64,000 nucleotides of DNA, from the NCBI GenBank assembly GCA_951799425.1, contig OX637399.1, positions 14,500,501-14,564,500 of the forward strand. The letters are read 5' to 3'. The notes below the pieces were generated by a model that saw nothing but the letters and a program-made list of their open reading frames with translations, did not search any database and was not told where the DNA came from. This DNA comes from Ilex aquifolium. Its lineage: Eukaryota > Streptophyta > Magnoliopsida > Aquifoliales > Aquifoliaceae. Within the stretch, counting starts at the first letter, position 1. Every line of letters starts with the position of its first letter. Positions 9,235-37,432 of the stretch are shown piece after piece. Both the position numbers and the translations under genes were made by a program.

Positions 9235-9273
9235 ATTGTGTGAAAATTACCTTTTTAATTCAACCATTTGCCT

Positions 9274-17085: not shown

Positions 17086-17103
17086 TGGCGCCGTTGCCGG
17101 GGA
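17086..17103 (+). other. Primer-binding site (tRNA-Asp) of RE4
   Basis: TGGCGCCGTTGCCGGGGA is complementary to the 3' end of plant tRNA-Asp, including the CCA tail. It is the priming site for minus-strand DNA synthesis. Confidence 0.93.
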
Positions 17104-17143
17104 AGGCAAGTGTCAAACCAAGAAGGTGATTTTCGGACGACCA

Positions 17144-17178
17144 AGGTAAGTCTCGTGATCTTCATCACGGGCTGAGGT
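17144..17178 (+). promoter_or_regulatory. Leader splice-donor-like site with hairpin (RE4)
   Basis: AAG|GTAAGT is followed by CGTGAT, CTTC and ATCACG, a 6-bp stem with a 4-base loop. The same arrangement is conserved in RE2, RE7 and RE10 with paired changes. Confidence 0.55.
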
Positions 17179-17291
17179 ACGTTATCCTGTGTATATATTC
17201 TTGTTTATGTATAATTTCATTTATAGATATTTTGTTGCATGTGGGGAAGGGACGACCAAAATCGGTTAGTTAGGCAACCCCTTGGCCCAAC

Positions 17292-18088
17292 ATGAATCTT
17301 GACCAAGACCCACCCGAGGATGCGGGTGATAATTTTGAAAATATGGATGCCAGCTCGAACATGCAAAGGGGTGGGGGAGCACAAGAACCTAGAATACCCA
17401 ATCCACGAATGCATTTTCCCCATCCTAGAAATGAAGGGAACAATATCCAAATTTATACTCCGGCGAGGTCAATGCGGGAATTCCTTCAACCAACCCGTAC
17501 CACCACAACTTCATGCATCCACCTTCCAATCCAGGCTCATCTCTTCATAGTTAAACCAGGGATGTTACAATTACTTCCTACTTTCCACGGAATTGAGAAT
17601 GAGAACCCCTATTCTCATATAAGGGATTTTGAGGAAATAGTTGCAACCTTTCTCCCCAATCACAATATGGAAGAGATAGCAAGAATGAAATTGTTCCCCT
17701 TTTCCCTGAGTGATAAGGCAAAAATGTGGCTTCATTCCTTAAGATACCGGACTGTGACATCTTGGGGCCAAATGATTTCCATGTTTTTGAACAAGTTTTT
17801 TTCGGTGCATAAAACCACCACCCTAAAGAAACAAATTCAAAACTTTTCTCAGCTGCCCAATGAACAATTATATCACTGCTGGGAACGATATAAGGAATTG
17901 CTACAGTCCATTCCACAGCATGGCTTTGAACCCTGGCAAATGGTGAGTTTCTTCTATGAAGGAATCACACCAGGCCATCGACAGTCCATTGATATGATGT
18001 GCAATAGGGAGTTTTTGAGCAAAGACCCCGATGAGGCCTTAGATTATTTTGATGCATTGGCAGAAAATGCACAGTCATGGGACATTAC
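17292..18088 (+). pseudogene. gag: N-terminal Gag of RE4, interrupted by RE5
   Basis: It starts MNLDQDPPEDAGDN. It carries the block before the capsid-like domain (SMREFLQPTRTTTTSCIHLP) and a Retrotrans_gag-type domain (ARMKLFPFSLSDKAKMWLHS through LYHCWERYKELLQSIPQHGF and ITPGHRQSIDMMCNREFLS). It is fully open up to the RE5 insertion, after DALAENAQSWDI. The frame resumes in register at 32437 once one ATTAC copy is removed, which proves the two parts are one gene. The structural role is the particle shell. Confidence 0.9.
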
Positions 18089-18280
18089 TGATTAGCACTC
18101 AAAAGTAGCATATTGTTACACTCTTTTTGGACTAATTATACTTTGATGGAGTTTAAATGATGATATTTTAGGTTCTAAAGTGAAGGAAAGTCCAAAGGCA
18201 TCAAAGAAGTACATCTGAGGGACAAATGCCGAATTAACGCAAGACCAAGGGAGCAATGTCAGGAGAATGCAAAGAATGAA

Positions 18281-18343
18281 GGACAAAGTGTAATAAAAGC
18301 AGGACAAAGTGTAATAAAAGCAGGACAAAGTGTAATAAAAGCA
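18281..18343 (+). repeat. 21-bp tandem repeat, three copies, in the RE5 U3
   Basis: GGACAAAGTGTAATAAAAGC with one more base repeats at 18281, 18302 and 18323, about 100 bp upstream of the TATA box. It is repeated identically in the 3' LTR at 30923-30985. The position suits an enhancer, which is an inference. Confidence 0.85.
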
Positions 18344-18422
18344 TTTGAAAAATCAGCATTCAGCAACACCACCGTTCATTCTCCACTTGCCCACTTGCCC
18401 ACTTGCCCAGCCTTCCTACGCC

Positions 18423-18430
18423 TATAAATA
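18423..18430 (+). promoter_or_regulatory. TATA box of the RE5 LTR promoter
   Basis: TATAAATA stands in the context CGCCTATAAATAGGC, a near-perfect plant TATA box. It is preceded by three CACTTGCCCA-type repeats. The start site would be about 30 bp downstream, near 18455. The 3' LTR copy is at 31065-31072. Confidence 0.8.
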
Positions 18431-18621
18431 GGCTGCTCCTTCTGCATTTCAAGGGGAGATCTGAGGGTGGAATTGGTGGAAAAACCAAGAGAGGAACTAA
18501 GAGTTAGGAGAGATTTTAGAAGAGTTTTTAGAGAGCAAATTTTCTTTCATCTTTTGTAGCTTCCATTTCAATTCATGTATTGAAGATTTTATGCTTATGT
18601 TCTTATGGTAAGAGTTCTTTC

Positions 18622-18915
18622 TTCTAATTGTCATTTCTTTATAGCTTTTATATTTACTTGCTTGTATAAATATAATGGAAGGCTGAGCCTCCTCTTCTAA
18701 TTGTCATTTCTTTATAGCTTTTATTATTTTCTTGCTTGTATAAATATAATGGAAGGCTGAGCCTCCTCTTCTAATTGTCATTTCTTTATAGCTTTTATTA
18801 TTTTCTTTTATGTATTTTTATTTCTTGGTTGTGAATTAAACACCAAGTAGTTATTGTTTTCTTTTATGTATTTTTATCTCTTGGTTGTGAATTAAACACC
18901 AAGTATTTATTGCTT
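18622..18915 (+). repeat. 72-74 bp and about 57 bp tandem repeats in the RE5 LTR
   Basis: CTTCTAATTGTCATTTC begins units at 18622, 18694 and 18768 (the last partial). Each of the first two ends in AAGGCTGAGCCTCCT. Downstream, a unit containing GTGAATTAAACACCAAG occurs twice. The units lie in the R/U5-side leader. Confidence 0.8.
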
Positions 18916-19800
18916 TCTTTTAATTTAAGTATTGTTTTCTTTTACTTCCATTGTTGGAGCTTCCTTCTTCCCCTTAGAGGAGTGAAACTCTTCCACTTTT
19001 CTAGAGCTTTACCAAAGCCGTGAAGGGTGGAACGTGATTCACTTGTTCTTTGTCGAAGAACGACTCCTTGTTTAGATATTTTACTTTAGAGTATTTTACT
19101 TTGTAACACCTTTTGGGGATGAGTACTATTCATCATTCTAGCTTTACCATAGTTATGAAGGGTGAGTAGTCCTCATTCACTCTTTGGGAAGGGATGATAG
19201 ATATGTAAAAGATTAATCCGGACATTATGTTTGTGTATCACCTTTATGCTTAAATGTTCTATACTCCACTTGATTTTTGGGTGATTGAATGCACCTAGCA
19301 AAGTAAAGGTACTTTGTATAATCAACGGATCTTTCTATGATAAATGGATGACTCCTACATGGAAAGATCCATTGATTCAAGGCAAGTACCCTAACTAACT
19401 CTTCATGATAAAATTTCAATGTCCACCATTATTGCACTTCATTCCTATCTTCCGATTAATTTGCCGTTGACACGGGAGTTAATTGAGTTATAAAGCATAA
19501 ACATAATGCACCGGATAATCAACTACATATTCTGATTCCCGAACCAAAGAGTGTTTGTTACATTTAATCATCTTATATTTTGTCTAGAAAAATACCCATT
19601 GGAAAGAATTTTACATTCTATCCAAAACTTCCCACAACTTCAAAATCATAATATTTCCAGTTACAAGTCTTTCTCACTATTTACTTCAAAGAACACCAAC
19701 CATAGTTCCCTGAGGATTCGACTCTGGACTCAAACCAGATTATTACTACAACTTGACCGCCTGCACTTGGGTGTACACATTTCGGATCAAGTCAAGTTTT

Positions 19801-19818
19801 TGGCGCCGTTGCCGGGGA
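19801..19818 (+). other. Primer-binding site (tRNA-Asp) of RE5
   Basis: TGGCGCCGTTGCCGGGGA, perfect, 6 bp after the LTR end. Confidence 0.95.
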
Positions 19819-19916
19819 ATCATAAAAGGTGCTCTTTTTAGAAAAAAGGTGAAAAAAAAAAAAAAAAACCTCTCTTTTTGTTTATATTTTTGCCTTATTG
19901 TGAATAATTTTGTTTT

Positions 19917-22900
19917 ATGACTGACACCAATCGCCTCTTTCAAAATTTGCCTGCTGAATCTTCTGGGTCTGTAAATCAACTTGAACCACCTTCACCCAAA
20001 TCAGAAGCCGATTCTTGTAACTTCAATATGGCAAATATTGACAGGCAGGGTGAAGATCATGTGAGAGAGGGGGAAGTACCCAACATTCGAACATTGCGGG
20101 ATTACTTACATCCCACAAGGAATAGTGTCCCCTCTTGTTTTGTTTTTCCGGAGAATGCACCCCACTTCACTGTGAAGCCGGGGACAGTGCATTTATTGCC
20201 CGTGTTTCAGGGATTGGATACAGAAAATCCGTATCTGCATATCAAAGACTTCGAAGAAGTGTGTGGAACATTTCAAGACAATTCTGAATTGACAAAAATG
20301 AAATTATTTTCTTTCTCTTTGAGGGATAAAGCCAAACAATGGTTACATTCTTTAAAATCTCTTTCAATCCCTAATTGGCAGGCTCTACAGAATGAATTTT
20401 TCAGAAAATTCTTTCCTCTGCACCGCACTAATGCACTCAAAAGACAAATCATGAATTTTTCGATCAAAGAAGGGGAAACTTTTTATCAAAGCTGGGAGAG
20501 ATTCAAAGATCTTCTCCAATCTTGTCCACACCATGCTTTTGAAGATTGGACTTTGGTAGGATTTTTCTATGACTCCTTGCCCACTAGGTTACGACAGTTT
20601 GTCGAAATGATGGCTCAAGGAGAGTTCATGGGAAAAAGTCCGGAGGAGGCATTCAATTTTTTTGATACCATATCTGACAGTTCTCAAATGTGGGACTCAG
20701 CCTCTCCTACCACTGTAGAAGCCAAACCACCTACTTTCCAAGGGGGTAAGTATGTCTTGAGAGAAGATGATGATCTTAGAGCAAAAATGTCCACTTTGTC
20801 TCGAAAGCTTGAAGCTTTAGAGATGAAAAAGATCCATCAAGTTGATGTTGTCCCTCCCACAGAACAAGTATGTGGGATTTGTGCGCTAACAGGGCATCCT
20901 ACTGGGGAATGTCCGACCATTCCGGCATTCAAAGAAGTTTTGTTGGAACAAACAAATGCCATTTCCAATTTCAACAAGCCTTACTCCAACCCATATTCTG
21001 AAACATACAATCCAGGGTGGCGGAACCACCCAAATTTCAGTTGGAGAAACACACAACCAACCCCCATGAATCAGCAACAAGGTCCACAACAACCACCTCA
21101 AGGACCTCCACAATATCCTCATCAACAAGGGCCACCACATCCACCTCAAGTACCTCCACAATATCCTCCATATCAACCACCACACAAAAGGAGCCTTGAA
21201 GATACATTGAATCAATTCATGCAAACCCAAATGAGCTATAACAATAGTTCTACTCAGGCTTTTATTGATTTCAAGGCCCAGACCACACAATCTTTTGAGG
21301 ATCTCAAAGGCCACATTCAAAAGCTGACCCAGTCCATGAGCACACATGAGAAAGGAAAATTTCCTGCCCAACCAAAGCCTCCACAAGGCCAATTTCAGGT
21401 GGGAAATCCATCAACTATGGAAACTCCACAAGACCAAGCCAAAACTGTCACCACATTGAGAAGTGGCAAAAAGATTGACAAGTCCATCAGAAACATGCTA
21501 ATTCCAGACCCAAAACCAGACTCAATTCCAGCCAACCCATTAAGTGAGCCAGAACTTGAAAAAAAAAATGACTGTGATCCCATGATTGAACAAGAACCAG
21601 AGCCATCAAGGGAAGAAGAACCATCGTGTTCTATTCCTGCTCCTTTCCCTCATAGACTCAAGAGCATACAGAAAGCAAACAATCAGTCTGAAATTTACGA
21701 GCTTTTCAAGCAAGTAAAAATCAACATCCCACTTCTGGATGCAATCCAACAGGTTCCAGCTTATGCCAAGTTTCTAAAAGACTTGTGCACAGTCAAAAGA
21801 AGCCAAAATGTTCAAAAAAGAGCCTTCCTCACAGAGCAAGCCAGTGCCCTACTTCAACACAAAATCCCTTCAAAGTGCGAAGATCCAGGGTGTCCCACTG
21901 TGTCATGTGTCATTGGAAATTTCAAAATTGAGCAAGCATTGTTAGACCTTGGAGCTAGTGTCAACTTGCTTCCTTTCTCTGTCTACCAGCAGTTGGGTTT
22001 AGGTGAACTGAAACCCACTTGCACCACACTCCAATTGGCAGATAGATCTGTAAAAATTCCTAGGGGTATTGTTGAAGATGTACTTGTCCAAGTGGATAAT
22101 TTTGTCTTCCCTGTAGACTTCATTGTTCTAGATACTCATCCAGAAGTTCATTCAGAAACTCCAATTCCTGTCATTCTTGGTCGACCTTTTCTAGCAACCT
22201 CCAATGCACTAATCAATTGCAGGAATGGTATTATGAAATTGACTTTTGGGGATATGACTCTCGAAATGAACGTCTTTGACATTGCAAAACACCCAAGAGA
22301 GTACGAGGAGGTAGGAGAAATAAATTCCATTGAGTCATTAATACAAGCACATCTGAATGACTCATTCTGTGAGGATCTTAGTGAATCAACTTTGTCAAAA
22401 TCTGACTCATCTGACTCTCTGGAACAAAACTCCATTGAGTGTCCTACCTTCAATGTGGGGACATGGGCTCCTAAATTTGAAGAAATTTCATCAAGTGGTA
22501 CAAAACCACTATCTTCAAGTGACAGGCCACCAAAGCCTGAACTGAAACCGCTCCCTTCTGATCTCAAGTATGCATTTTTAGGTGAGGATAAATCTTACCC
22601 AGTGGTAATTTCTTCAAAAATCACAGACTTGCAAGAAGCTCAATTAATTGAAGTTCTTAAAAGTCATAAAAGCATCATTGGGTGGACCATCGCTGATTTG
22701 AAAGGTATAAGCCCGTTAATATGTAATCATGCCATATACCTTGAAGAGGACTCAAAACCCTCTCGTCAAATGCAGCGACGATTGAATCCTCACATGAAAG
22801 AGGTTGTGAGACTGGAAGTGCTCAAACTCCTGGATGCAGGGATAATTTTTCCTATCTCCGATAGCAAATGGGTTAGTCCAACCCAAGTTGTACCAAAGAA

Positions 22901-25517
22901 ATCTGGAGTCACAGTAGTCAAAAATGATGCAAATGAACTTGTGCCAACACGAGTCGTCACAGGATGGCGAATGTGCATTGACTATCGAAAACTCAATCTG
23001 GTGACTAGAAAAGACCATTTTCCTCTTCCCTTCCTTGACCAAGTCCTCGAGAGAATAGCAGGCCATGAATTTTACTGTTTCCTAGATGGGTATTCCGGAT
23101 ACAATCAAATTGAGATAGCTCTGAATGACCAAGAAAAGACCACATTCACATGTCCATTTGGCACCTTTGCATTCAAAAGGATGCCATTCGGACTTTGTAA
23201 CGCTCCTGCAACATTTCAAAGATGTATGCTGAGCTTGTTCAGTGACATGGTCGAAAATTTTTTGGAAATCTTCATGGATGATTTCTCGGTATATGGTGAC
23301 TCATTTGATTTGTGTCTAGCTAACCTAGAAAAAGTTTTGATAAGATGCAAAGAGGCAAATCTGGTGCTTAACTGGGAGAAATGTCATTTCATGGTGAATC
23401 AAGGCATTGTCTTGGGTCACATTGTGTCGTCTGAAGGCATGAAAGTTGATAAAGCAAAAATTGATTTGATAAGGAATCTTCCTGCTCCTAGGGTTGTAAA
23501 GGATGTTCGATCATTCTTAGGTCATGCAGGATTCTACAGAAGATTCATAAAAGACTTCAGCACCATAGCAAAACCTATGTGTCATCTTTTGAGTCAGGAT
23601 GTCATTTTTGACTGGAATGAAGCGTGCCAAAAATCCTTTGACAAACTCAAAGGCATGTTAATTTCTGCCCCAATAATGCAACCTCCTGACTGGACTCTAC
23701 CCTTTGAATTGATGTGTGATGCTAGTGACTATGCTGTAGGTGCTGTTTTGGGACAAAGAAAAGATAAGAAGCCACATGTGATTTACTATGCAAGTAAAAC
23801 TTTAAATGATGCCCAAATGAATTACTCAACAACTGAAAAGGAATTACTTGCTGTAGTATTTGCATTGGAAAAATTTCGATCTTATCTTGTTGGTTCTTCT
23901 GTTACTGTATTTACTGACCATGCAGCACTGAAATTTTTGCTTACAAAAAAAGATGCCAAACCAAGGCTCTTGAGATGGATCCTTTTGCTCCAAGAATTTG
24001 ATTTAGTCATTAAGGACAAAAAGGGTGTGGAAAATGTGGTGGCAGATCATCTGTCAAGATTAACTTATGAATTTCATGAGGATGGACTGCCAATCAATGA
24101 AAAATTCCCTGATGAACAACTATTCAGGATTGATGAGACCCCATGGTACGCTGATATTGCTAATTTCCTTGCTACCGGAACACTTCCTCCATTTTTCACT
24201 CCCATGGACAAAAAGAAGTTTCTGAGGGAGGTCCGCAATTTCTTTTGGGAAGATCCCTACGTATTCAAGTACTGTAAGGATCAGATCATAAGACGTTGCA
24301 TCCCCGCTCAGGAAAGTAGACAGGTAATAACATTTTGTCATTCAGAAGCATGCGGTGGTCATTTTTCATCTCGAAAAACCGCTGCAAAAATCTTGCAGTG
24401 TGGATTTTACTGGCCCACACTTTTCCAAGATGTCCATGCTTTTTGCGTAACTTGCGATAGATGTCAAAGGTTGGGAAACATTTCAAAAAGAAACATGATG
24501 CCCTTAAACCCAATTTTGGTGATCGAAATTTTTGACTGTTGGGGTATCGATTTTATGGGACCATTTCCCCCCTCCTTTGGCTATCTATACATTTTAGTAG
24601 CCGTAGACTATGTATCCAAATGGGTTGAAGCAATTCCATGCCGAAATAATGATCATCAAACAGTGATCAAGTTTTTAAAAGAAAATATTTTATCTCGGTT
24701 TGGAATTCCAAAATCCATTATAAGTGATGGGGGTTCTCATTTTTGCAATCGTCCCTTCTGGAATTTAATGAAAAAATACTTGATTTTTCACAAAATTGCA
24801 ACCCCTTATCATCCACAGACCAGTGGACAAGCTGAGTTAGCTAATCGGGAGATCAAATTAATTTTGGAAAAAACGGTGAACCCAGATCGCAAAGATTGGT
24901 CATTAAGACTAACTGATGCGCTCTGGGCATACCGAACTGCTTTTAAAACAATTTTGGGCATGTCTCCCTATCGATTAGTCTATGGAAAGCCATGTCACTT
25001 GCCTGTGGAATTGGAACATAGGGCATACTGGGCTATTAAAGCAATGAATTTTGACTTAGACAAGGCTGGACTGTCACGGAAGCTTCAGATTAATGAATTG
25101 GAGGAATTGAGAAATGAAGCATATGAAAATGCTAAGATTGCAAAAACCAGGATGAAAATTTTTCATGACAAGAACATAGTGCGAAAATCTTTTGAACCTG
25201 ATCAAAAGGTTCTACTTTTCAATTCGAGACTTCGCCTATTTCCTGGTAAGTTGAAATCAAAATGGACTGGACCATACATTGTTAAAAAGGTATTTGAACA
25301 TGGGGCAGTGGAAGTGGAGAACCCATCAAACGGTAACATTTTTACCGTCAATGGTCAGAGATTAAAACCCTTTGTGGAGAATTTTGTCCAAAATGTGGAG
25401 AGCATTTTTTTTATGGATCCAGAAAGTATCTCCGGAAATCACTCCGGAGATTACGCTTGCCGACACAAAAAAGGGTCGGGTCAGTCAGACACCCGACACG
25501 ATGGACTGCCTTTATAA
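19917..25517 (+). CDS. gag-pol: Gag-Pol polyprotein of RE5, intact (1866 aa)
   Basis: A single open frame with no stop or shift. A capsid-like Retrotrans_gag domain lies at about residues 129-225. A CCHC knuckle follows at C319-C322-H327-C332, then a Pro/Gln-rich linker with repeated PPQ units. The retropepsin motif D677-L-G-A-S681 has Leu in place of the usual Ser/Thr, as in other Athila-type proteases. RT has the FMDD box at 1119-1122, and RNase H starts around D1268. Integrase has an HHCC region (H1475 or H1482, then C1510 and C1513) and catalytic D1545, D1604 and E1640, with exactly 35 residues between the last two. There is no chromodomain. All key residues are present. A tail of about 45 residues after the integrase C-terminus runs into the promoter-like start of the first accessory cassette. 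Expression of Gag and Pol as one polyprotein is usual in this superfamily. Confidence 0.97.
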
Positions 25518-25640
25518 GGCTCCCATCGCTTTTTTTTTTTTTTTTTTTTCTTTTCCTCACCACACCTTTACTCTTTTCTTTTCTTTTTCTTCTTCTGCTT
25601 CTTCTCTTTTCTTCTTCTTCTCCACTGCATCTGGTCTTCT
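25505..25640 (+). promoter_or_regulatory. Candidate internal promoter or leader of accessory cassette 1
   Basis: GCCTTTATAAGGC overlaps the pol stop codon and is followed by 22 T residues and a long T/C-rich leader. Cassette 2 has the matching order (GCCTTTATTAGGCC at about 27586, then a T/C-rich leader). A TATA-like role or a splice-acceptor tract are both possible. Only the conservation is seen. Confidence 0.35.
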
Positions 25641-25668
25641 GTACCACGATCCAACCCATAACAGTACC

Positions 25669-25815
25669 ATGTCTGCATTTTTCGATGACCCTATCCTCCT
25701 TCTCATGATCTACATTTGTTTGTATTATTTACTTATGGCTGTTCTTCTTCGGGCCGCACTGATGATCAAGGGTTTTTGTCCCAATGAAAACCCAGACCAC
25801 CCCAAAGATGCTTAA
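25669..25815 (+). CDS. Small membrane-segment peptide, cassette 1 (48 aa)
   Basis: It starts MSAFFDDPILLLMIYICL, continues with a hydrophobic segment of about 22 residues and a basic turn (LLRAALMIKG), and ends NENPDHPKDA. It is homologous to the 43-residue peptide of cassette 2 (27747-27878): both have a DDP motif near the N-terminus, an ICLY-type core and an N-P-D-x-P ending. It is too short for family assignment. Survival of the frame in two diverged copies argues that it is translated. It is followed by a pyrimidine tract and an AG that look like a splice acceptor (to about 25842). Confidence 0.5.
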   Translation: MSAFFDDPILLLMIYICLYYLLMAVLLRAALMIKGFCPNENPDHPKDA

Positions 25816-25932
25816 TCTCTGTTTTTTTTTTTTGGTATAGGTCATCGGCGATTGAACAGATCTCCACAGTTAACTGCGTATTCAAGCTCTACAAACCGAA
25901 AAACTCGAAACATTGGGGACAATGTTCAGTCT

Positions 25933-25945
25933 AGGTTGGGGGGTG
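25933..25945 (+). promoter_or_regulatory. Internal polypurine tract-like site of RE5
   Basis: AGGTTGGGGGGTG stands in the context CAATGTTCAGTCT-AGG, nearly identical to the true PPT at 30718-30730 (CAATGTTTAGG-TTGG). It lies between the small peptide and the zinc-ligand ORF of cassette 1. Confidence 0.5.
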
Positions 25946-26139
25946 AGATCTACAGTTTACAATAGTTGATCTGCAGTTTACAGTAGTTGATCTGCGCAGG
26001 TTGAACCCGTAAAATTTTCTGTAAATTTTTTTTGTTTTTATTGTTGTATCTGTTCATATTATGTACATTGTATTAATGATAATATCTGTGGGTCAGTTTT
26101 GATCGTCTTTGTGACTGGAAGACGTAAAAAAACCAGATA
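25946..26139 (+). other. Cassette 1 leader between the small ORF and the zinc-ligand ORF
   Basis: Non-coding. It holds a short direct repeat (GATCTACAGTTTACAATAGTT, then GATCTGCAGTTTACAGTAGTT) and A/T-rich DNA. The last 50 bases before the ORF (CTTTGTGACTGGAAGACGT and following) are conserved in cassette 2. Confidence 0.6.
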
Positions 26140-26571
26140 ATGGGTCATAGAGTATCAATCATGGATGTAAATCTTTTTTGGTTTAGTCTAGGAGTCCTAC
26201 GTACTTTTCCATCTGATGTACATATCATGATCATGAGAAAAGCAAGATTAGTAAGGAAGGCTGAAATCAAAGAAAAACAAGCGAAACCCCTCTGTGGCCG
26301 AAGCAGTTATTCTAAACGTCGTCGTGCTACACGACTTGGTGCCTGTAAACAGTGTGGCAGATACTTTCATGAGAAAAGATACAACAAATGTTCTGAACCA
26401 ATTTCCGGTCGCGCAACCGATCGATTAAACTGGATAAAACATGGGCTGAGTAAGGATTACCCTGATACGCCATGCTATTCCGGTATTGTGCTTACCCGAT
26501 TTGTGAGAGAGGAAGTTGGGAGAGTTACTAGTTGTCCATTTTACACAGATACGGAGGGGGAATCGGATTGA
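26140..26571 (+). CDS. Accessory zinc-ligand basic protein, cassette 1 (143 aa)
   Basis: The alternative start M8 (26161, MDVNLFWFSLGVL) matches the cassette 2 copy and may be the real one. Order of features: a hydrophobic start; FPSDVHIMIMRKAR (residues 23-36); a charged stretch; LCGRSSYSKRRRATRLGAC (51-69) with a basic cluster usable as a nuclear signal; zinc ligands C69-C72-H77-C84 (CX2CX4HX6C); SEPISGRATDRLNW (85-98); and an acidic C-terminus. It is about 70% identical to the protein at 28412-28837, with all ligands kept. The Pro-x-Asp-Val, Gly-Arg-Ser, basic run and CX2C order resembles the carlavirus cysteine-rich nucleic-acid-binding protein family. That is recognised from layout only and not confirmed. 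Function is unknown. A DNA/RNA-binding or silencing-related role is an inference. Confidence 0.75.
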   Translation: MGHRVSIMDVNLFWFSLGVLRTFPSDVHIMIMRKARLVRKAEIKEKQAKPLCGRSSYSKRRRATRLGACKQCGRYFHEKRYNKCSEPISGRATDRLNWIKHGLSKDYPDTPCYSGIVLTRFVREEVGRVTSCPFYTDTEGESD

Positions 26572-26988
26572 CCTCTGTGGAAAAGTGTACTGAGGTTGGG
26601 AATGAAAGCTGAAGGTCCGAGTCTGTAAATTTTATTTTATTTTATTTTATTTTATTTTTTTATGTTCTGTACAAACTCTTTTGGCTTAAGAATGTTTATT
26701 TTGATTCCTTTTAGGATGCATAAAAAAAAAAAAAAAAAAGGGGTTGGAATATATAATAAGTAAAATAGAGATGTTGAAATATATAATAAGTAAAATAAAG
26801 GGGTTAGTAGTGTAAAATCTGAAATTTTATATTCATTCGGTTTAGTGAATTGAGAATAATTACAACTTTATTGAAAAAAATTTAATAACACCCTTTTCTT
26901 TTGAATAATAAACACTTTATATTTTTTTTCTTTCTTGTGTTACACTTTGTACCCCTACAAATTTTGGGATTCTTGGTGAATTAAGGAA

Positions 26989-27060
26989 TTTCAGGGACGA
27001 AATTCTTTTGAGGAGGGTAGATTGTGAGATCCCAAATTTTTTAAATTTTTGACAATAGTT
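26989..27060 (+). repeat. Captured chromovirus PPT/LTR-start fragment
   Basis: TTTCAGGGACGAAATTCTTTTGAGGAGGGTAGA followed by TGTGAGATCCC. The chromovirus RE9 has TTTCGGGGACAAAATTCTT, AAGGGGGAAGAA and TGTAAAACCC at its own pol-to-3'-LTR junction (58691-58733). Such a junction is foreign to an Athila-type element. The likeliest origin is template switching or insertion followed by loss. No second LTR end was found nearby. Confidence 0.6.
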
Positions 27061-27334
27061 TAAGTATATATATTATGAGTTTTGATGGGAAAGTATAAGG
27101 AATAGTTAAGTTTTGTGGTTGATATATATAATAAGTGAAATATAGGGGAGCAAAGTATAACTATTTTAACTTTTATGATAATTGAGTCTTCAGCCACGTG
27201 AAGACTGGCAAAAAAAAAAAAAAAAAAAAAAGTCAAAAGTAGGCAGCCGTTCATTCATTACATTTTAGAAAATGTGGGTGTGTGCAATTAATGGTATAAA
27301 ATTTAGTGTGTGTCTGGTTCTTTGTTGGAACCGT

Positions 27335-27500
27335 GAGTGAAGTACAGTTGCTTTTATTTATTAAATGTTATTTTTAATGCATGTCACTTTATTTTGTTGT
27401 ATAATTTTGTTGTTCCTAGTTTCAGATATCGGTGCATGGGTCAAAGCTCAAGTGCGAGGTGTTCTCTTACCCTACTCATTTTTATTACTATGCACCATTA
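27335..27500 (+). repeat. Segment homologous to the Athila post-pol spacer
   Basis: It matches RE4 at about 37215-37385 (shared words TTTCAGATATCGGTGCATG, TGCGAGGTGTTCTCT, ACCCTAC). In RE4 this lies directly after pol. In RE5 it lies after cassette 1, so cassette 1 appears to interrupt or precede the ancestral order. Confidence 0.65.
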
Positions 27501-27746
27501 TTGCGCCTGCTGCCATTATTGCGCCTGCCGACACTGCCGAAAGTAAAGTTAAAAAAAAAAAAAAAAAAAAAAAATCTGAGGAATGCCTTTATTAGGCCTT
27601 CCACCTTTTTCTTTTTCTTCCACCATCACCGGTGTTGGTTTCCCCCTTTTCTCTTTCCCTTATCTTCTTCTCTTTCTTTTTCTTCTCTTCTTCTTCGTCG
27701 TCGTTCTTTCTATTCTCTGTAAAAACAACTCAACCCCTGTAAATAC

Positions 27747-27878
27747 ATGACCATATACGCCGACGATCCAGTCTTTTGTTTAATAATTTGTCTTATATGT
27801 TTGTATGTGTACCTGGGTGCTCTTTGTGTTCTCACACTTAGGATGAGGAGTTTCCAGAGAAACCCAGATATTCCTTGA
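27747..27878 (+). CDS. Small membrane-segment peptide, cassette 2 (43 aa)
   Basis: It starts MTIYADDPVFCLIICLICLY, continues hydrophobic, and ends MRSFQRNPDIP. It is the counterpart of 25669-25815 by position, the DDP motif, hydrophobic core and N-P-D-x-P end. The stop is followed within about 30 bp by a T-rich tract and TTTGTAG (27908), aligned with the splice-acceptor-like site of cassette 1. Confidence 0.5.
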   Translation: MTIYADDPVFCLIICLICLYVYLGALCVLTLRMRSFQRNPDIP

Positions 27879-28411
27879 GTTGAGTAATTGTTGTATTTTG
27901 TTTGTAGGTTTCGGCAGATGAACAGATCTGTACCTTACAACCTTATCTCCACTAGCCCACTAGTGCTAGTGTTGTAAGTATTGCTTGTTTGTAATTTCAT
28001 TTATATATATATTTGAAATTTGATATCTACAGCTTGTGATTCTCATGGCTATTTGTCTTTATAAGATTCCTTGTGAATTTGCTATGCCCTCCAATGACTA
28101 TGTTGTAATTGCTGTTACAGTAAGATCTGATAATTTGCCAAATAATCCTCCTCAATCCTATGTATTCTGGGTTTATTCCTTCTTCGTTAATTTGTTTGTT
28201 TCATCCTAAATCTTCTTCCTTCCGCTTGTATTTTGGTATACTTTCTCTAGTTTCGTATTTGTAATTTTAGTTTTAGATCTGAAAAAAAAAAAAAAAAAAT
28301 TTATTTTTTTTGGATCGCGTTTTTTTTAGTATTTGTACCTGTATTTCATGATCACATCGGATGCAGCTTCAACTGTCTTTGTGACTGTCAGACGTTAAAG
28401 AACCAGATAGA
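27879..28411 (+). other. Cassette 2 leader between the small ORF and the zinc-ligand ORF
   Basis: Non-coding. It opens with the acceptor-like AG and the block GATGAACAGATCTG shared with cassette 1. A/T-rich DNA with a 17-A run (about 28281) follows, then the conserved CTTTGTGACTGTCAGACG block just before the ORF. It lacks the purine-tract site present in cassette 1. Confidence 0.6.
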
Positions 28412-28837
28412 ATGTCTTTAGTCTTAGCAAGCATGGATCCTAAACTTTTTTGGTTTAGTCTAGGAGTTCTACGCATTTTCCCATCTGATGTGCATGCTGT
28501 GATAATGAGAAAAGCAAGGGATGTGAGAAAAATTGAGATCCGAGAGAAACAACAACAACCATTGTGTGGCAGAAGCAATTTTGCTAAACATCGTCGTTCC
28601 AAACGACTGGGTGCTTGTTACTATTGTGGCAGGATATTTCATATGAAAAAACATAATCAGTGTTCTGAACCAATTTCGGGTCGTGCAACCGATCGATTAA
28701 ACTGGATAGTGTATGGGCTGAGTAAGGATTATCCTGACACACCATCTTATGCCAGTCCGGGACTTACAAGTTATGTGCGACAAGAAGTTGGAAGGGTCAC
28801 TGATAATGACATAGATCCAAGCGATGACTCGGATTAG
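28412..28837 (+). CDS. Accessory zinc-ligand basic protein, cassette 2 (141 aa)
   Basis: A paralogue of 26140-26571. It starts MSLVLASMDPKLFWFSLGVL, with M8 (28433) aligned to the other copy. FPSDVHAVIMRKAR, LCGRSNFAKHRRSKRLGAC and the ligands C69-C72-H77-C84 are kept, as is SEPISGRATDRLNW and the GLSKDYPDTP block. The acidic tail (DIDPSDDSD) differs. Substitutions are spread over linkers while ligands and basic residues stay, which suggests selection on protein function in both copies. Confidence 0.75.
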   Translation: MSLVLASMDPKLFWFSLGVLRIFPSDVHAVIMRKARDVRKIEIREKQQQPLCGRSNFAKHRRSKRLGACYYCGRIFHMKKHNQCSEPISGRATDRLNWIVYGLSKDYPDTPSYASPGLTSYVRQEVGRVTDNDIDPSDDSD

Positions 28838-28950
28838 ATTTTGACTATAAAAACAAAGCTGTGGAAAAATGTGTTTTGGAATGAAGGTTAAGGGTCTGAA
28901 CTCTTTTGTAAAATATTTTTGTACAAAGTCTGGTTGTTGAAATAAAAATA

Positions 28951-29214
28951 TGGGCCGAGTAAGGAACGTCCCGAACTACCAACTAACAGTGTAGGTAGGG
29001 ATTTGATCCTGAGACGCCATAAATTTCCAAGTTCAATTTGTGCATTTTATCTTCTTTCAATTCTCATAGATAAATGAGTATGTGGGCGGAGTAAGGAATG
29101 TCCTAAAATGCCAACCTGTAGTGTGGGTAGGGACTTATCCTGAGACGCCATAGTTTTTCAAGTTTAATTGGTGCATCTAGTCTTCTTTCAATTTTCATAG
29201 ATAAATGAGTATGT
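28951..29214 (+). repeat. 132-bp tandem duplication with relics of the zinc-ligand ORF tail
   Basis: Two units (28951-29082 and 29083-29214), each starting TGGGC(C/G)GAGTAAGGAA and containing CCTGAGACGCCATA and CATAGATAAATGAGTATG. The unit start resembles the coding stretch for GLSKDYPDTP in the preceding ORF (TGGGCTGAGTAAGGATTA at about 28710), so the units may be degenerate partial copies of its 3' end. Confidence 0.7.
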
Positions 29215-29882
29215 TTATAATTTTGAATTTTATTTTTCTTGTTTTCTAAAAAAAAAAAAACCACTTCCTTGAAAAATGGTATTTTCTCTATGCTTAAATG
29301 TCAAATGTATATTGCTATTTGTTATTCTTAAGGTAAAGAATGACCAGACTCAAAAATAGAATCGGTATATAACCGACATTCCATGAAAAACCTGACATTA
29401 CCAGTGGAGATGATAAAGAATACCATGGTAAGTTTTGAGCCTTATCATACTTTTGAGAGATAATTAACATTTATTCAAGTAAGGTCTTTCACTCTCTATT
29501 TTTGAATAATCTCATTAAATTTGCTTTGATTGACGCAACTAAGGTAATCTGTTGACATATCCCCAAGAAATCTGTTCATACGACACATACATGTTCACAT
29601 ACTTGAGAAAGGATTTTAGGCCATCTTTGATTTGATATTGAGCCTTAGCCATTTTTTCTGCAAAATTATTTCCCTAGTCAGCCATGTTTGAGCCCTCAAT
29701 GTATGATTTCTTCTTTGATAAACCCAAATATTTACCAAGCCACAAGAAAACATACTGGACACACCATTGCTATCAAATTTTCTTGCACACTCTTATTAAT
29801 CAATATGACACAGAAATGCAAAGAAATGGGAAAACTGTGGAGATTACTTTTCGATGATAAGGAGAATCAATGGGAACAAATG

Positions 29883-29928
<46 letters not shown>

Positions 29929-30717
29929 TTCTGGGCAAAATGTCGAAAAGCTAGAAAGAAGTGTGCTACATTACAGAATGAAAAGATAGCTTTTGAAAAC
30001 CTCTGACGTCATTTCATTAGCCACTGACCTCTGGCCACGCTACAACCTATGAAAAGCCCTAATTGATCTCAAGTCTGTTACATGTGTGTGTTGTTAATCA
30101 AAATTGGGGTATGGTAAATAGTATTTCTTTAAATTGCATCAATATTCTTTCATGAGATTATGCCAAACATGATTAGTTTGTTTCCGTAAACTTCACTTCC
30201 TTCCTAATTGTGCATGTGATTTTTCGATTGGCCACCTTCTGATCACATGCCCCGTGAGAGACAAGTCACTATAATCGGAGTGAATTTTTGCTGAGAGCAT
30301 TCTACGAGAGGTTTGTGAAATCGAAGCTATCCATGGAAGGTAGTAAAGTGGAGTGTTTGTTATATAACAATTCTTGTTGCTAGAATGATCATTCTTACTA
30401 CATAGGGAATTTCAAATACCAATATAACAAGTGTTTATTTTTGCGTATATTACGTACCAATGACAGAGAAGTGTTCTATGTTATAAAAAAAAAAAAAAAA
30501 AAAAGTTTCAACTATCATGGTGCTAATGCATATACACATTTTTTTTTTCACAATGGAGTTTGTAGGTAGCTTCACTGAAAACCTTCACGAGACAAAACTC
30601 GTCCACTAGGAATCACCTAGGGGTTTAACGGCTTATTGCATATGCTAAATGCAATCGTGTTATCTACGAAAGTGATTTTGTTATGTTGTTATTTATTGCT
30701 AGAGACCAGCAATGTTT
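29215..30717 (+). other. RE5 3' non-coding region
   Basis: No gene seen. Parts match the RE4 spacer (for example the text around 29610-29700 and 30130-30200 against 38030-38120 and 38640-38700), which shows common descent. It contains a 42-base A run (29883-29924) and an 18-base A run (about 30486). Confidence 0.7.
29883..29924 (+). repeat. Poly(A) run of 42 bases
   Basis: An uninterrupted homopolymer inside RE5. Similar shorter runs occur near 26723, 27211, 27550, 28281 and 30486. Assembly length may be unreliable here. Confidence 0.9.
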
Positions 30718-30730
30718 AGGTTGGGGGGTG
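30718..30730 (+). other. Polypurine tract of RE5
   Basis: AGGTTGGGGGGTG directly abuts the TG start of the 3' LTR. It is the primer site for plus-strand DNA synthesis. Confidence 0.9.
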
Positions 30731-32436
30731 TGATTAGCACTCAAAAGTAGCATATTGTTACACTCTTTTTGGACTAATTATACTTTGATGGAGTTTAAAT
30801 GATGATATTTTAGGTTCTAAAGTGAAGGAAAGTCCAAAGGCATCAAAGAAGTACATCTGAGGGACAAATGCCGAATTAACGCAAGACCAAGGGAGCAATG
30901 TCAGGAGAATGCAAAGAATGAAGGACAAAGTGTAATAAAAGCAGGACAAAGTGTAATAAAAGCAGGACAAAGTGTAATAAAAGCATTTGAAAAATCAGCA
31001 TTCAGCAACACCACCGTTCATTCTCCACTTGCCCACTTGCCCACTTGCCCAGCCTTCCTACGCCTATAAATAGGCTGCTCCTTCTGCATTTCAAGGGGAG
31101 ATCTGAGGGTGGAATTGGTGGAAAAACCAAGAGAGGAACTAAGAGTTAGGAGAGATTTTAGAAGAGTTTTTAGAGAGCAAATTTTCTTTCATCTTTTGTA
31201 GCTTCCATTTCAATTCATGTATTGAAGATTTTATGCTTATGTTCTTATGGTAAGAGTTCTTTCTTCTAATTGTCATTTCTTTATAGCTTTTATATTTACT
31301 TGCTTGTATAAATATAATGGAAGGCTGAGCCTCCTCTTCTAATTGTCATTTCTTTATAGCTTTTATTATTTTCTTGCTTGTATAAATATAATGGAAGGCT
31401 GAGCCTCCTCTTCTAATTGTCATTTCTTTATAGCTTTTATTATTTTCTTTTATGTATTTTTATTTCTTGGTTGTGAATTAAACACCAAGTAGTTATTGTT
31501 TTCTTTTATGTATTTTTATCTCTTGGTTGTGAATTAAACACCAAGTATTTATTGCTTTCTTTTAATTTAAGTATTGTTTTCTTTTACTTCCATTGTTGGA
31601 GCTTCCTTCTTCCCCTTAGAGGAGTGAAACTCTTCCACTTTTCTAGAGCTTTACCAAAGCCGTGAAGGGTGGAACGTGATTCACTTGTTCTTTGTCGAAG
31701 AACGACTCCTTGTTTAGATATTTTACTTTAGAGTATTTTACTTTGTAACACCTTTTGGGGATGAGTACTATTCATCATTCTAGCTTTACCATAGTTATGA
31801 AGGGTGAGTAGTCCTCATTCACTCTTTGGGAAGGGATGATAGATATGTAAAAGATTAATCCGGACATTATGTTTGTGTATCACCTTTATGCTTAAATGTT
31901 CTATACTCCACTTGATTTTTGGGTGATTGAATGCACCTAGCAAAGTAAAGGTACTTTGTATAATCAACGGATCTTTCTATGATAAATGGATGACTCCTAC
32001 ATGGAAAGATCCATTGATTCAAGGCAAGTACCCTAACTAACTCTTCATGATAAAATTTCAATGTCCACCATTATTGCACTTCATTCCTATCTTCCGATTA
32101 ATTTGCCGTTGACACGGGAGTTAATTGAGTTATAAAGCATAAACATAATGCACCGGATAATCAACTACATATTCTGATTCCCGAACCAAAGAGTGTTTGT
32201 TACATTTAATCATCTTATATTTTGTCTAGAAAAATACCCATTGGAAAGAATTTTACATTCTATCCAAAACTTCCCACAACTTCAAAATCATAATATTTCC
32301 AGTTACAAGTCTTTCTCACTATTTACTTCAAAGAACACCAACCATAGTTCCCTGAGGATTCGACTCTGGACTCAAACCAGATTATTACTACAACTTGACC
32401 GCCTGCACTTGGGTGTACACATTTCGGATCAAGTCA
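30731..32436 (+). repeat. 3' LTR of RE5
   Basis: The same length and, by eye, the same sequence as the 5' LTR, offset by 12642 bp throughout. The small frames inside it repeat those of the 5' LTR exactly. It is followed by the ATTAC target duplication. Confidence 0.97.
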
Positions 32437-34170
32437 ATTACGAATCCCACCGATGTACCAAGGTCTTCTCCTCAAGGGAGTAGCCAAACTCATAGGGGAG
32501 GGATTTATGACTTAAGTGACCGGGAGGACTTACTTTCAAAAATTGCTAAATTATCTAGGAAGGTTGAGAGTCTTGAGGTCAATAGGAGGCATGAGGTGTC
32601 ACAAGTGTCAAAGGCCGAGGAGTTTTGCTCAATATGTGAGAATGTGGAGCATTCCACGTCGGAGTGCCCCAACATTCCGGCGCTTAAGGAAGCATATCAC
32701 GAGCAAGTCCATGCATTTAACCAAACAAGGCAATCATTCTCCCCTCACTCAAACACGTATAATCCGGGTTGGAGCAATCACCCTAATTTTAGTTGGAGAA
32801 ATGAGATTCCCACTCCTCATGGCTCAAATGCACATACACCTCCCGTGCCTCCTAAGCAAGGTCAATACCAAAATCAATACCAAGGCCAAGGGCAAACGTC
32901 TAGCTCCCAATACCCTCAGACTAATCCGCAAGGGTATTTGACAAACCTGCCACCATAAATTTTTTCTCTAAGTCCACCTTCACAAATTTTTTCTCAAGGA
33001 TCGTCCAATCCATCCACATACCAACCTCCTCACAAAAGGAATTTGGAGGATATGTTCCATTCCTTCATTCAAAGCCAAACCGCCATCAATAACCAAAATG
33101 CCACAGCCATCAATGATATAAGAGCCCAACTCACAAAGTTGACAAACTCCATAGGGGCATCTCAACAAGAAAATGGGAAGTTCCCCGCTCAACCACAAGA
33201 GAACCCTAGGGGTCAACACGTTGTTGAATCATCGGAGCCTTCGAGAGAGAGTTTCGAGCAACTCAAAGCTGTCACCACCCTCCGTAGTGGCAAAGAAATT
33301 GACAAAACCATTTTGCCAACGGTCTCACCCAAGACCACATTGCCAAAAGGAAAAGATATATTGGTTGACGCCGACAAGGTTGAGGTGAGTGAAGAGATAG
33401 AAAGAGAGGTTGTTGAGAAAGAAAAATTGATTGATGATTGTGTGCTTATTCCTCCTACGTCTGCCCGTTTCCCGAGTCGTTTGAAGCCACATGTCAAGGT
33501 GGCTAATTACACTGATATCTTGGAAATGATTAAGCAGGTGAAGATTAACATTCCACTCCTCGACGCCATCAAGCAAATCCCATCTTGTGCTAAAATTTTG
33601 AAGGATCTATGCACGGTGAAAAGGAGATTGAATATCCACAAGAAGGCATTCCTCACAGAACAAGTGAGCTTAATATTGAGGACCAACACTCCTCCCAAAT
33701 TCAAAGACCCCGGTTATCCAACCATAGCCATCACCATTGGAAATTGTCGAGTGGAGCAAGCACTCCTCGATTTGGGGGCAAGTGTGAATCTTCTTCCCTT
33801 CTCGGTGTATCAACAACTTCAGCTTGAGGAGTTGAAGCCCACCTCAATCACGCTTCAATTGGTGGATCGTAGTATCCGTACACCAAGGGGAGTAGTTGAG
33901 GATGTCTTAGTTCAAATTGATAAATTTTACTTCCCTGTCGATTTCATTGTGCTTGATACACACCCTGTTACAAACCTTAGCTCCCAAATTCCCGTAATAC
34001 TTGGAAGACCCTTCCTTGCTACATCTAATGCCGTGATAAATTGTAGGAACGGTCTAATGAAGTTGGCATTTGGGAATATGACAATGGAGCTCAATGTATT
34101 CAACTTGGCAAAGCAACCATGTGATAATGAGGAAGTAAGGGAGGTAAATAGAATCGACACTTGGAGCTGA
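32437..34170 (+). pseudogene. gag-pol: C-terminal Gag and protease of RE4, after the RE5 interruption
   Basis: In register with 17292-18088 after removing RE5. It has a coiled-coil-like stretch (LLSKIAKLSRKVESLEVNRR), an intact CCHC knuckle (CSICENVEHSTSEC), a Gln/Pro-rich linker, an in-frame TAA at 32956, and then QPPHKRNLEDMFHSFIQSQ. The protease block follows, with [19 protein letters not shown] and [19 protein letters not shown]. The frame ends at 34168 by a shift before the RT section. The protease motif itself is intact. Confidence 0.88.
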
Positions 34171-34202
34171 AGGGGATGTTGAAATTTAAGGAAGAATGAA
34201 TT

Positions 34203-35709
34203 GTGGATCTTGAGAATTATGATGAGCAAGAGGAGGTAGAAGATTTGAAAGGGATGGAAAGGTGGATCCCAACATTCGAGGAGTTACCCCGTCGAGAAAA
34301 GAAAATTTTTCCGTCGGATGAACAAAAGCCCAACTTGGAGTTGAAGCCCTTGCCCTCCCATTTGAAGTATGCCTATCTTGGGGAAGGTGAAACATTTTCA
34401 GTGGTCATTAGCTCTACAATGAACATGGAACAAGAAAAAGAACTCTTGGAGGTATTGAGAAAGCATAACGGAGCAATTGGGTGGACCATTGCGGATATCA
34501 AGGGGATAAGCCCTCTCATTTGCACCCACCGCATATATCTTGAGGAGGATTCCAAACCTTCCCAACAACCACAAAGACAGTTGAATCCCATCATGAAGGA
34601 GGTGGTGAGGGATGAGGTTCTGAAACTACTTGATGTGGGGATCATCTTTTCAATTGCCGATAGTAAGTGGGTTAGTTGAGAATGATGAGAATGAGCTTAT
34701 ACCTACAAGAGTGATCACCGGATGGAGGGTGTGCATTGATTACTGGAAGCTGATCGCTTGCACAAGAAAAGACCACTTCCCATTGCCATTCCTCGATCAA
34801 GTTCTAGAACGAGTAGCGGGTCATCTATTCTACTGCTTTTTAGATGGATACTCCGGCTACAATCAGATCGAGATTGCTTTGGAGGATCAAGAGAAGACCA
34901 CCTTCACGTGCCCCTATGGTACCTTTGCCTACCGCCGCATGCCATTTGGACTGTGCAATGCTCCGGGGACTTTTCAACGCTGTATGATGGGGATTTTCAG
35001 TGACATGGTGGAAAAGATAGTGGAGGTCTTTATGGATAAATTTTTTGTGTTTGGAGATTCATTCGAGGGATGTTTGGCAAACTTGGAGAAAGTTCTAACA
35101 GTATGTGAGGAGAATAATCTAGTCTTGAATTGGGAAAAGTGTCACTTTATGGTGACGGAAGGAATTGTGCTTGGCCATATAGTTTCGGCAAGGGTTATTG
35201 AAGTCGACAAATCCAAGGTGGAGGCCATCTCCAACCTCCCCACGTCAAGAGCCATCAAAGGCATCCGGTCATTTTTGGGCCATGCGGGGTTTTATCGTCG
35301 ATTCATAAAGAATTTCAGTGCATTGGCCCGACCCTTGACCAACCTGATGTCCAAGGAGGTCCCATTCGAGTGGTCGGATGATTGTGAGGCATCCTTTAAA
35401 AAACATAAAAGCATGCTAGTCACACCTCCGATCATGCGACCACCTAATTGGGATCTACCTTTTAAGCTCATGTGCGACACGAGTGATTACGCGGTCGGTG
35501 CAGTGCTCGGTCAAAGGGAGGAAAATAAATCGTATGTGATACACTATGCTAGCAAAATACTGAATGAGGCTCAGATGAATTACACTACCACCGAGAAAGA
35601 GTTGCTAGCAGTAGTGTTTGCCTTAGATAAATTTCGTTCTTACATCATTAGTTCACCTATTGTTGTCTTTACTGATCACTCTGCTTTGAAATATTTGTTG
35701 TCTAAGTAG
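34203..35709 (+). pseudogene. pol: Reverse transcriptase and RNase H of RE4
   Basis: 34203-34679 is in a different frame from the protease section. A deletion of about 40 bp at 34677 removes the block equivalent to [13 protein letters not shown] of RE5. The frame continues as ENDENELIPTRVITGWRVCI. The catalytic box is FMDKF instead of FMDDF, so a catalytic aspartate is lost. RNase H ([16 protein letters not shown]) is readable and ends at a TAG (35707) after YLLSK. It is inactive. Confidence 0.9.
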
Positions 35710-37209
35710 GATGCAAAACCGAGACTCATTAGGTGGATACTTCTCCTACAAGAGTTCAACTTGACAATCAAGGACAAGAAAGGAGTTGAGAACGTGGTGG
35801 CTGATCATTTATCCCAGCTTGTGGTGCAAAAGGCCGATGAGCACATTCCTATCCCTGACTTTTTCCCTGACGCGCATTTGCTTTCAATTCATTCTGTATG
35901 TCCTTGGTATGCTGATATATGTAACTATCTTGCAATAGGACAGATACCACCACAATGGAGCCCAGAAGATCGAAGACGATTTATGGCAGATGTGAAGTAC
36001 TTCTACTTCGACAACCTGTACCTATTCAAGTATTGTCCCGACAAAGTCATGATAAGATGTGTACCTGAGAATGAACAACGGGATGTCCTTGCATTTTTCC
36101 ATTTACAAGCATGCGGTAGACATTTTTCAGCAAAAAAGACTTCCGCTAAAATTCTCCAATCAGGTTTTTACTGGCCCTCTCTTATCAAAGATTCTGTTTC
36201 GTTTTGTAAGGGATGCAACAGATGCCAACGTTTGGGTAGTGTGACCCGAAGAAACATGATGCCTTTTTCCCCTGTGCTTGTCATAGAAATATTCGACTGT
36301 TGGGGCATCGACTTCGTGGGTCCTTTCCCTATGTCATTTGGTTATTTGTACATCCTCCTGGCAGTGGACTATGTGTCCAAGTGGGTGGAGGCTATCCCGA
36401 CCAAGACTAATGACCACCGGGTCGTAGTCAAGTTTCTCAAGGAGAACATCTTTTCGAGGTTTGGGATGCCTCGTGCAATAATAAGTGATGGTAGATCACA
36501 TTTCTGTAATAGGCCATTTGCATCTCTAATGTTCAAATATGGCATCACTCACAAAATATCCACTGTCTATCACCCACAAACAAATGGCCAAGCCGAGCTA
36601 CCCAATAGGGAGATCAAGAACATTCTAGAAAAAATGGTTAACCCAAATAGGAAGGATTGGTCCGATAGATTGACCGATGCCCTATGGGCATACCGCACTG
36701 TCTTTAATACTGTTTTGGGCATGTCTCCCTACCGGCTTGTCTATGGAAAGGCTTGCCACCTGCCAGTCAAAATGGAACACAAGGCCTATTGGGCCATTAA
36801 GACTTTAAATTTTAATTTGAGAATGGCCGGTGATCATAGGAAGTTAGAGCTGAATGAGTTGGAAGAGATTTGATGAGATGCGTATGAGAGCTCAAAAATA
36901 TCAAACGAACGGGCTAAAATCTTTCATGACAATTCCATCATACGGAAATCATTCGAGCCCGGACAAAAAGTGCTCTTATACAATTCTCGCCTCTCAATTT
37001 TCCAGGGAAAACTCTGATCCCGTTGGGATGGCCCCTATCTTGTCAAGGTGGCCTACCCCAACGGAGCTGTTGAGGTGACAAACCCTGAGAATGGCCAGAC
37101 ATTCAAGGTCAATGGCCAAAGACTTAAGCCATTCTTTGAGGGTTTTGAAGGGCAAGAAGTTGAGGAGGAGTTGACGGATCCTGTGTATCCGAATTTGCTG
37201 GAGGAGTAG
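35710..37209 (+). pseudogene. pol: Integrase of RE4
   Basis: An HHCC region ([10 protein letters not shown], then CKGCNRC) is followed by the core [18 protein letters not shown] and [11 protein letters not shown], so the three acidic residues persist. The C-terminal part has two adjacent TGA stops at 36871-36876, where relatives have Arg-Arg, and another TGA at about 37015 in GKL-stop-SRWDGP, where relatives have Arg. It ends at NLLEE (37209). All three stops fit CGA to TGA change at methylated CpG. Confidence 0.9.
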
Positions 37210-37432
37210 CTAATGTTTATGCTTTTTAGTGTACAATGCTTTTATTTACTTATGTTATTTTTATTCCATGTCACTTACTTTCTTTGGTTGTATAGTATTG
37301 ATCTTCTTAGTTTCAGATATTGGTGCTTTTGTCGAAACTCAATTGCGAGGTGTTCTCTAACCCTACCTATCTTTCTACTATCCTTCATTGCATATCATAT
37401 CTTTTTGTTGCATTCAGGACAATGCATGAATC

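Follow-up and report, generated by a model that had tools for sequence, protein, structure and literature searches.

RNA silencing is described as being used by plants against retrotransposons and viruses alike (PMC3689765). Among the cysteine-rich proteins (CRPs) of carlaviruses, which share a basic motif and a finger, the CRP of potato virus H is reported to suppress local silencing (PMC3689765), and one of the two mandarivirus CRPs studied has been reported as a local silencing suppressor (PMC12172455). Extra genes are already known in plant long terminal repeat (LTR) elements: orchid Ty3/gypsy elements carry an AlkB RNA demethylase domain (PMC9289625), a fixed extra domain of a kind also found in some flexiviruses. 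Here we describe RE5, a Ty3/gypsy element in a 64,000-nucleotide stretch (the window) of Ilex aquifolium (English holly) chromosome 9 (14,500,501-14,564,500). Its pol is followed by two tandem cassettes, each encoding a small membrane peptide and what looks like a homologue of the nucleic-acid-binding proteins (NABPs) of flexiviruses.

RE5 differs from the orchid AlkB elements in the protein it carries, which has viral NABPs as its named relatives, and in the tandem duplication of the gene. Where Athila elements with an env-like third open reading frame (ORF) have that single ORF, RE5 has two small cassettes of two genes each, one of which encodes an NABP of viral type. Flexivirus NABPs are encoded near the 3' end of the viral genome, whereas the holly NABPs lie behind pol in an LTR element, in duplicate and with a membrane peptide ahead of them; they are therefore to be regarded as homologues and not as a viral gene in place. 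In the titles and abstract beginnings of the open-licence literature searched, no element bearing an NABP of flexivirus type was reported, and within that literature the NABP pair appears to be undescribed. The cassette was likely overlooked because a wide-ranging survey that looked for additional ORFs in LTR elements of plants worked with a minimum of 250 codons (PMC6317226), and the NABPs have 141-143. Counter-silencing by plant elements becomes directly testable in RE5, which is young, present in many copies and carries a homologue of viral NABPs that is under selection. The RE5 cassettes also point to genes shared by LTR elements and plus-strand RNA viruses. We know of few plant elements that counter RNA silencing.

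Two cassettes behind pol

An earlier note on this DNA, made from the sequence alone, had claimed an intact pol followed by two diverged cassettes, each with a small membrane peptide and a protein of 141-143 residues. This description was borne out. The gag-pol ORF (19917-25517, 1866 residues; ORF list and Pfam) has no internal stop, and after it the order small membrane peptide, then basic CCHC protein is found twice in tandem, all on the plus strand. Cassette 1 consists of a 48-residue peptide (25669-25815) and NABP1 (143 residues, 26140-26571), cassette 2 of a 43-residue peptide (27747-27878) and NABP2 (141 residues, 28412-28837). The peptides were recognized as ORFs and by hydropathy, each having a single stretch of strong hydrophobicity (Kyte-Doolittle means over 19 residues, 2.75 and 2.82); they are 34% identical to each other (tblastn E 0.02, within the window). 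The NABPs possibly start at the second methionine (residue 8), which is the start point of eight of their ten first database relatives.

Each cassette is preceded on the same strand by a TTTAT(A/T)AGG motif and pyrimidine tracts (TTTATAAGG, 25511-25623, and TTTATTAGG, 27588-27696), which are possibly promoter-like. The cassettes can be aligned from these motifs and tracts through the NABP, which is the most conserved part, as expected of a tandem duplication. At the DNA level the likeness is found mainly in the NABP gene and the sequence just upstream, where 511 bp are 75% identical; the pyrimidine tracts contribute short patches. The two NABPs share 67% of their residues over 141 aligned codons and 70% over residues 1-130, in agreement with the earlier estimate of about 70%. 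Both contain, as had also been noted, a basic cluster and the FPSDVH...RKAR block; the basic cluster is followed by a zinc-finger-like Cys/His motif. The finger residues C69, C72, H77 and C84 are numbered alike in the two proteins and have the spacing C-x2-C-x4-H-x6-C.

Between the cassettes, a 150-bp piece (27342-27491) is 80% identical to 37231-37381 in the post-pol region of another element, hinting at recombination between element families. Directly downstream of NABP2 (29006-29214) there is a two-copy tandem repeat with a spacing of 131 bp, which was also seen in seven of eight copies fetched from the holly genome.

Relationship to viral nucleic-acid-binding proteins

Lack of profile similarity to the viral family had been named beforehand as an outcome that would speak against a viral relationship. 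Both NABPs matched Viral_NABP (PF05515) and Carla_C4 (PF01623) above the curated Pfam cut-offs of 23 and 20.9 bits. For Viral_NABP the values were 1.1e-10 and 42.4 bits (NABP1, residues 15-112) and 3.7e-12 and 47.1 bits (NABP2, residues 5-113), higher scores than that of the shorter, 90-residue grapevine virus A protein (30.4 bits). The Carla_C4 matches (6.7e-6, 26.4 bits and 7.4e-5, 23.1 bits) were confined to residues 46-77 of NABP1 and 25-76 of NABP2. None of eight reversed or shuffled NABP versions (of ten made) matched either family at E<=10, which makes a chance match unlikely.

The first protein search yielded, among 13 candidates, ten relatives with 64-89% identity, all on short contigs from metagenome-type sources. 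Profile A1, built from these ten and the two holly NABPs, had no virus-named member, and all 12 of its members matched both Viral_NABP and Carla_C4 at E<=0.01. Of 562 candidates searched with it, 27 had E<=10; one of these was the grapevine virus A protein (1.4e-7) and another, a weak match, that of carrot vitivirus 1 (1.0e-2). These two were included in profile A2, so later vitivirus matches arose partly by construction. With A2, 3460 candidates yielded 58 proteins with E<=10, 14 of them virus-named, including peach mosaic virus proteins (1.4e-8 and 2.1e-8) and, more weakly, carlavirus proteins (1.2e-3, 7.4e-3 and 0.32). It also matched a Striga hermonthica protein (P0051, 3.8e-8) on a 2.88-Mb contig. 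P0051 is named 'Unknown protein' and lies above the Viral_NABP and Carla_C4 cut-offs. In IMG/VR none of 31 pattern matches was confirmed, and a scan of NCBIfam gave no match above a cut-off.

Since the Pfam cut-offs were passed and a profile without virus-named members reached grapevine virus A, the resemblance looks like homology to flexivirus NABPs. Convergence was rejected on the profile similarity above cut-off; of the earlier wording 'related or convergent', only the first half was kept. The claimed likeness to carlavirus proteins was retained as far as the Carla_C4 match is concerned, but the NABPs are not specifically carlavirus-like, because the finger is CCHC, as in the vitivirus proteins aligned with it, and the better named matches are to vitivirus, trichovirus and prunevirus proteins. 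Carlavirus CRPs have a comparable basic cluster and finger, but the finger of the potato virus H protein is reported as C-x2-C-x9-C-x4-C (PMC3689765) instead of the holly spacing. By sequence pattern, the holly finger is vitivirus-like rather than carlavirus-like. By the curated cut-off the holly proteins belong to the same family as the Viral_NABP proteins of vitiviruses, trichoviruses and relatives, and they have in common with the grapevine virus A protein a GRSxxxKxRR cluster, the C-C-H-C finger, a D-R-L-x-W/F...ETP-like block and an acidic tail.

Copies in holly and history of the duplication

The holly genome (800,232,872 bases in 103 contigs) was searched for further copies. The best 150 of 4100 first-look candidates for NABP1, and the best 150 of 4090 for NABP2, were all full length and free of stops, a selection biased toward intact copies by its scoring. 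Eight of 150 NABP places, taken from the top and the bottom of the list, were fetched. All eight contained both NABPs at full length without stops; peptide 2 was present in 8/8 and peptide 1 in 7/8. In one copy (L014, 3090-4138) a third NABP, which is a second NABP1, was found 620 bp away; the number of cassettes is therefore still changing.

A 200-kb sample (C10:27.2-27.4 Mb), picked for its density of element copies, contained three young copies, each with both NABPs, stop-free, and both peptides. It also held two older elements. In one of them the LTRs are 92.8% identical over the main piece and 96.5% over another 344 bp; in the other the identity is 91.1%. Each of the two elements has an RE5-like pol with stops, one open 48-residue peptide frame, one NABP, an RE5-like 3' region and a 3' LTR; tblastn at E<=0.01 revealed no second NABP in either. 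The cassette pair that the earlier note had described is thus real in RE5, and both NABPs are intact in all eight fetched copies, but the pair is not universal, two older relatives having one cassette.

In a simple scheme the single cassette would be original and the duplication new in the young family. The distances lean against this scheme: NABP1 and NABP2 (78.0% DNA identity, synonymous divergence dS 0.80) are separated at least as widely from each other as either is from the older NABPs (79.0-84.3%, dS 0.37-0.60). In a tree with the older copies, modest support (86/84) placed both older NABPs on the side of NABP1. In a wider tree the NABP1 group (97/94) and the NABP2 group (94/86) each contained metagenome proteins, and an NABP1-like protein (P0009) and an NABP2-like fragment (P0014) both lie on a contig of 2941 bases, apparently one and the same. 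Because of these distances, the trees and the apparently shared contig, the duplication may well have preceded the young family, one cassette having later been lost in the older elements.

Selection on the cassette genes

The ratio of nonsynonymous to synonymous substitution rates (dN/dS) between NABP1 and NABP2 was 0.33 (bootstrap 0.19-0.52), far from the value near 1 that the earlier note had associated with decaying ORFs. Differences at codon positions 1, 2 and 3 numbered 37, 28 and 51. When the same stretch was read in the two other frames, dN/dS was 0.94 and 1.35; omission of the first seven residues lowered the ratio to 0.28. With the two older copies included, all six pairwise ratios were 0.26-0.40, with bootstrap upper limits of 0.45-0.73. 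Values so far below 1 mean selection and not decay: the NABP is kept by purifying selection. The near-identical young copies gave pN/pS 0.47 for both NABPs (8 and 19 changes), too shallow for an estimate of selection.

For the membrane peptide, dN/dS was 0.24 between the two older copies (23 changes) and 0.50-0.57 between these and peptide 1 (dS near 0.9). Peptides 1 and 2 have diverged too much for an estimate (dS 1.37). Among the young copies, peptide 2 had pN/pS 0.83 (4 changes, too shallow) and peptide 1 no changes.

These data bear on the idea that the NABP genes are passengers, that is, a chance insertion of a viral gene (an endogenous viral element, EVE) or an unrelated zinc-finger ORF, in either case decaying. 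Endogenous flexivirus insertions are known in plants, such as a replicase-like one in cucumber (PMC3136472), and solved structures gave only weak matches, chiefly to ribosomal zinc fingers such as eL37/eL43 (best 0.0036), though these were not taken as homology. The low dN/dS and the retention of the cassette contradict decay: the cassette is present in young copies, and the order pol-peptide-NABP-LTR recurs in the two older elements. The shuffled and reversed controls were also negative. We consider a passenger origin extremely improbable.

Possible function of the cassettes

The explanation of the whole locus that we favour, with confidence only slightly outweighing doubt, is that RE5 is a young Athila-type element with two tandem, selected cassettes of peptide and NABP, in which the NABP blunts host silencing. 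Each cassette would be expressed from its own transcript, directed by the TATA-like motif and the pyrimidine tract. The NABP would use its basic cluster and CCHC finger to bind RNA or DNA and, like some of its viral relatives, would blunt silencing of RE5 in the cytoplasm, the nucleus or both; the membrane peptide might anchor or aid it, and the two diverged copies may have different targets. Our best guess for the NABP itself is that it binds nucleic acids as a regulator, either blunting silencing or working in the nucleus.

Several observations weigh against this explanation. The p12 protein of the carlavirus CVB is described as a transcription factor that does not suppress locally induced silencing (PMC3689765), and family membership therefore does not fix the function of the NABP. 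The single NABP of each older, one-cassette element has one stop codon. The promoter-like motifs are consensus matches only, and RE5 was assigned to Athila on features and not on a reverse transcriptase (RT) tree. The predicted structures of the NABPs are poor (two AlphaFold predictions, mean pLDDT 44 and 53). In a search of BFVD, 0/27 matches had E<=0.001, and query TM-scores were 0.14-0.23. The top 13 comprised 12 named plant-virus proteins, presumably all from flexiviruses (11 annotated as NABP, RNA-binding protein or silencing suppressor and one as '15kDa protein'), and one unnamed protein; given the low AlphaFold confidence they were not counted as structural proof.

Instead of acting on silencing, the cassette might be a two-part transport module, comparable to the double gene block known from plant RNA viruses, that helps element RNA to pass between cells. 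Such a role would agree with the pairing of a one-helix peptide with a basic protein of nucleic-acid-binding type in each cassette, a pairing also found in the two older single-cassette elements. Several plant-virus movement modules are described as combining a membrane protein with one that binds nucleic acids (PMC7595835). For the env-like proteins of plant elements, a role at plasmodesmata has been proposed (PMC7264820). Yet none of four membrane peptides scanned matched a Pfam movement protein or any other family above its curated cut-off (the best, sub-threshold, was DUF3481 at 0.0083), and the carlavirus NABP gene is reported to be separate from the movement block (PMC3689765). On balance, transport seems quite unlikely to us.

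The NABP could also work beside Gag in RE5 replication, as a chaperone of RNA, in packaging or in translation, which we regard as unlikely. The CCHC finger and basic cluster would suit such a role, and the selection is of the same order as that given for env of Arabidopsis Athila elements (0.21-0.30, taken as dN/dS; PMC2410132). But Gag of RE5 already carries its own canonical CCHC knuckle (residue 319), and in tblastn of the 64-kb window no NABP match elsewhere was better than E 0.64, including the pol-related elements at 2041-8299 and 32442-38750, both of which are decayed.

The wider NABP family

NABP relatives occur outside holly, in metagenome proteins and in Striga hermonthica. A tree of 44 rows was built, 19 of 61 database proteins being omitted as fragments or frame-shifted. 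It contained vitivirus, trichovirus and carlavirus branches. Three further groups, each of several rows, had no virus-named member: the first joined P0011 and P0013 to the holly type, the second comprised P0015-P0019 and P0028-P0030, and the third P0047 and P0051-P0054, including the Striga protein. P0031 and P0033 stood as single rows outside the groups. Branches between groups were long, and several were weakly supported. Three unnamed relatives (P0024, P0025 and P0027) appeared by eye to be frame-shifted versions of the second group, as would be expected of decaying genomic copies. When the second-group protein P0016 was compared with the holly genome, the best identity among the best 150 of 3400 candidates was 47%. 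Many of these places were NABP2 sites, and no second-group NABP was found among the 150 places scored.

The family relationships suggest that retrotransposons and plant RNA viruses have shared an NABP gene. A broader scenario, which we put forward tentatively and would not expect to hold in full, is that a plant Ty3 lineage made a gene of plus-strand RNA viruses a standing part of itself, as a duplicated peptide-NABP suppressor or transport module replacing env, and that the NABP family moved between elements and viruses, possibly repeatedly and possibly from element to virus. A narrower idea, which we find doubtful, is that the NABP passed into viruses from plants or their elements, the element family being nearer the source. 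The three multi-row groups without virus names, one including the Striga protein on its large contig, would fit this direction, as would the vitivirus proteins, which have no counterpart of the N-terminal part of the element NABPs. Trichovirus and prunevirus proteins, in contrast, match the holly NABPs over nearly their full length; the long, partly ill-supported branches and the metagenome rows with hosts not identified also speak against it.

Structure and surroundings of RE5

RE5 occupies 18089-32436 on the plus strand, as defined by identical LTRs and a 5-bp target-site duplication, ATTAC (18084-18088 and 32437-32441). LTR comparison placed the 1706-bp 5' LTR at 18089-19794 and the 3' LTR, without a single difference, at 30731-32436. 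As the LTRs do not differ and ATTAC is present on both flanks, the insertion is very recent. A purine-rich tract (30719-30730) immediately precedes the 3' LTR, and a primer-binding site, TGGCGCCGTTGCCGGGGA, lies at 19801-19818, both on the plus strand. The gag-pol frame contains gag, protease, RT, RNase H and integrase domains (Pfam).

Athila elements are described as having neither a chromodomain nor a second RNase H and as using a non-Met tRNA primer (PMC6317226). Neither domain was among the Pfam hits of the gag-pol ORF. The primer-binding site is one that we take to be of the tRNA-Asp type, and with this assumed identity RE5 agrees with Athila in all three features. No Pfam match to the Athila ORF-1 domain was found in gag-pol, the two NABPs or the two peptides; as this domain is reported in 16% of Athila elements, membership without it is possible (PMC6317226). 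RE5 thus fits a very young, structurally intact Ty3/gypsy element, Athila-type by its features.

The flanking sequences (16454-18088 and 32442-38750) show that RE5 was inserted into an older, decayed related element, both halves of which resemble an inverted stretch at 2041-9931. Farther downstream, the window contains long direct repeats at 43821-46244/58723-61119 (97% identity) and 50788-52697/56309-58218 (99%), which are probably LTRs or duplicated elements.

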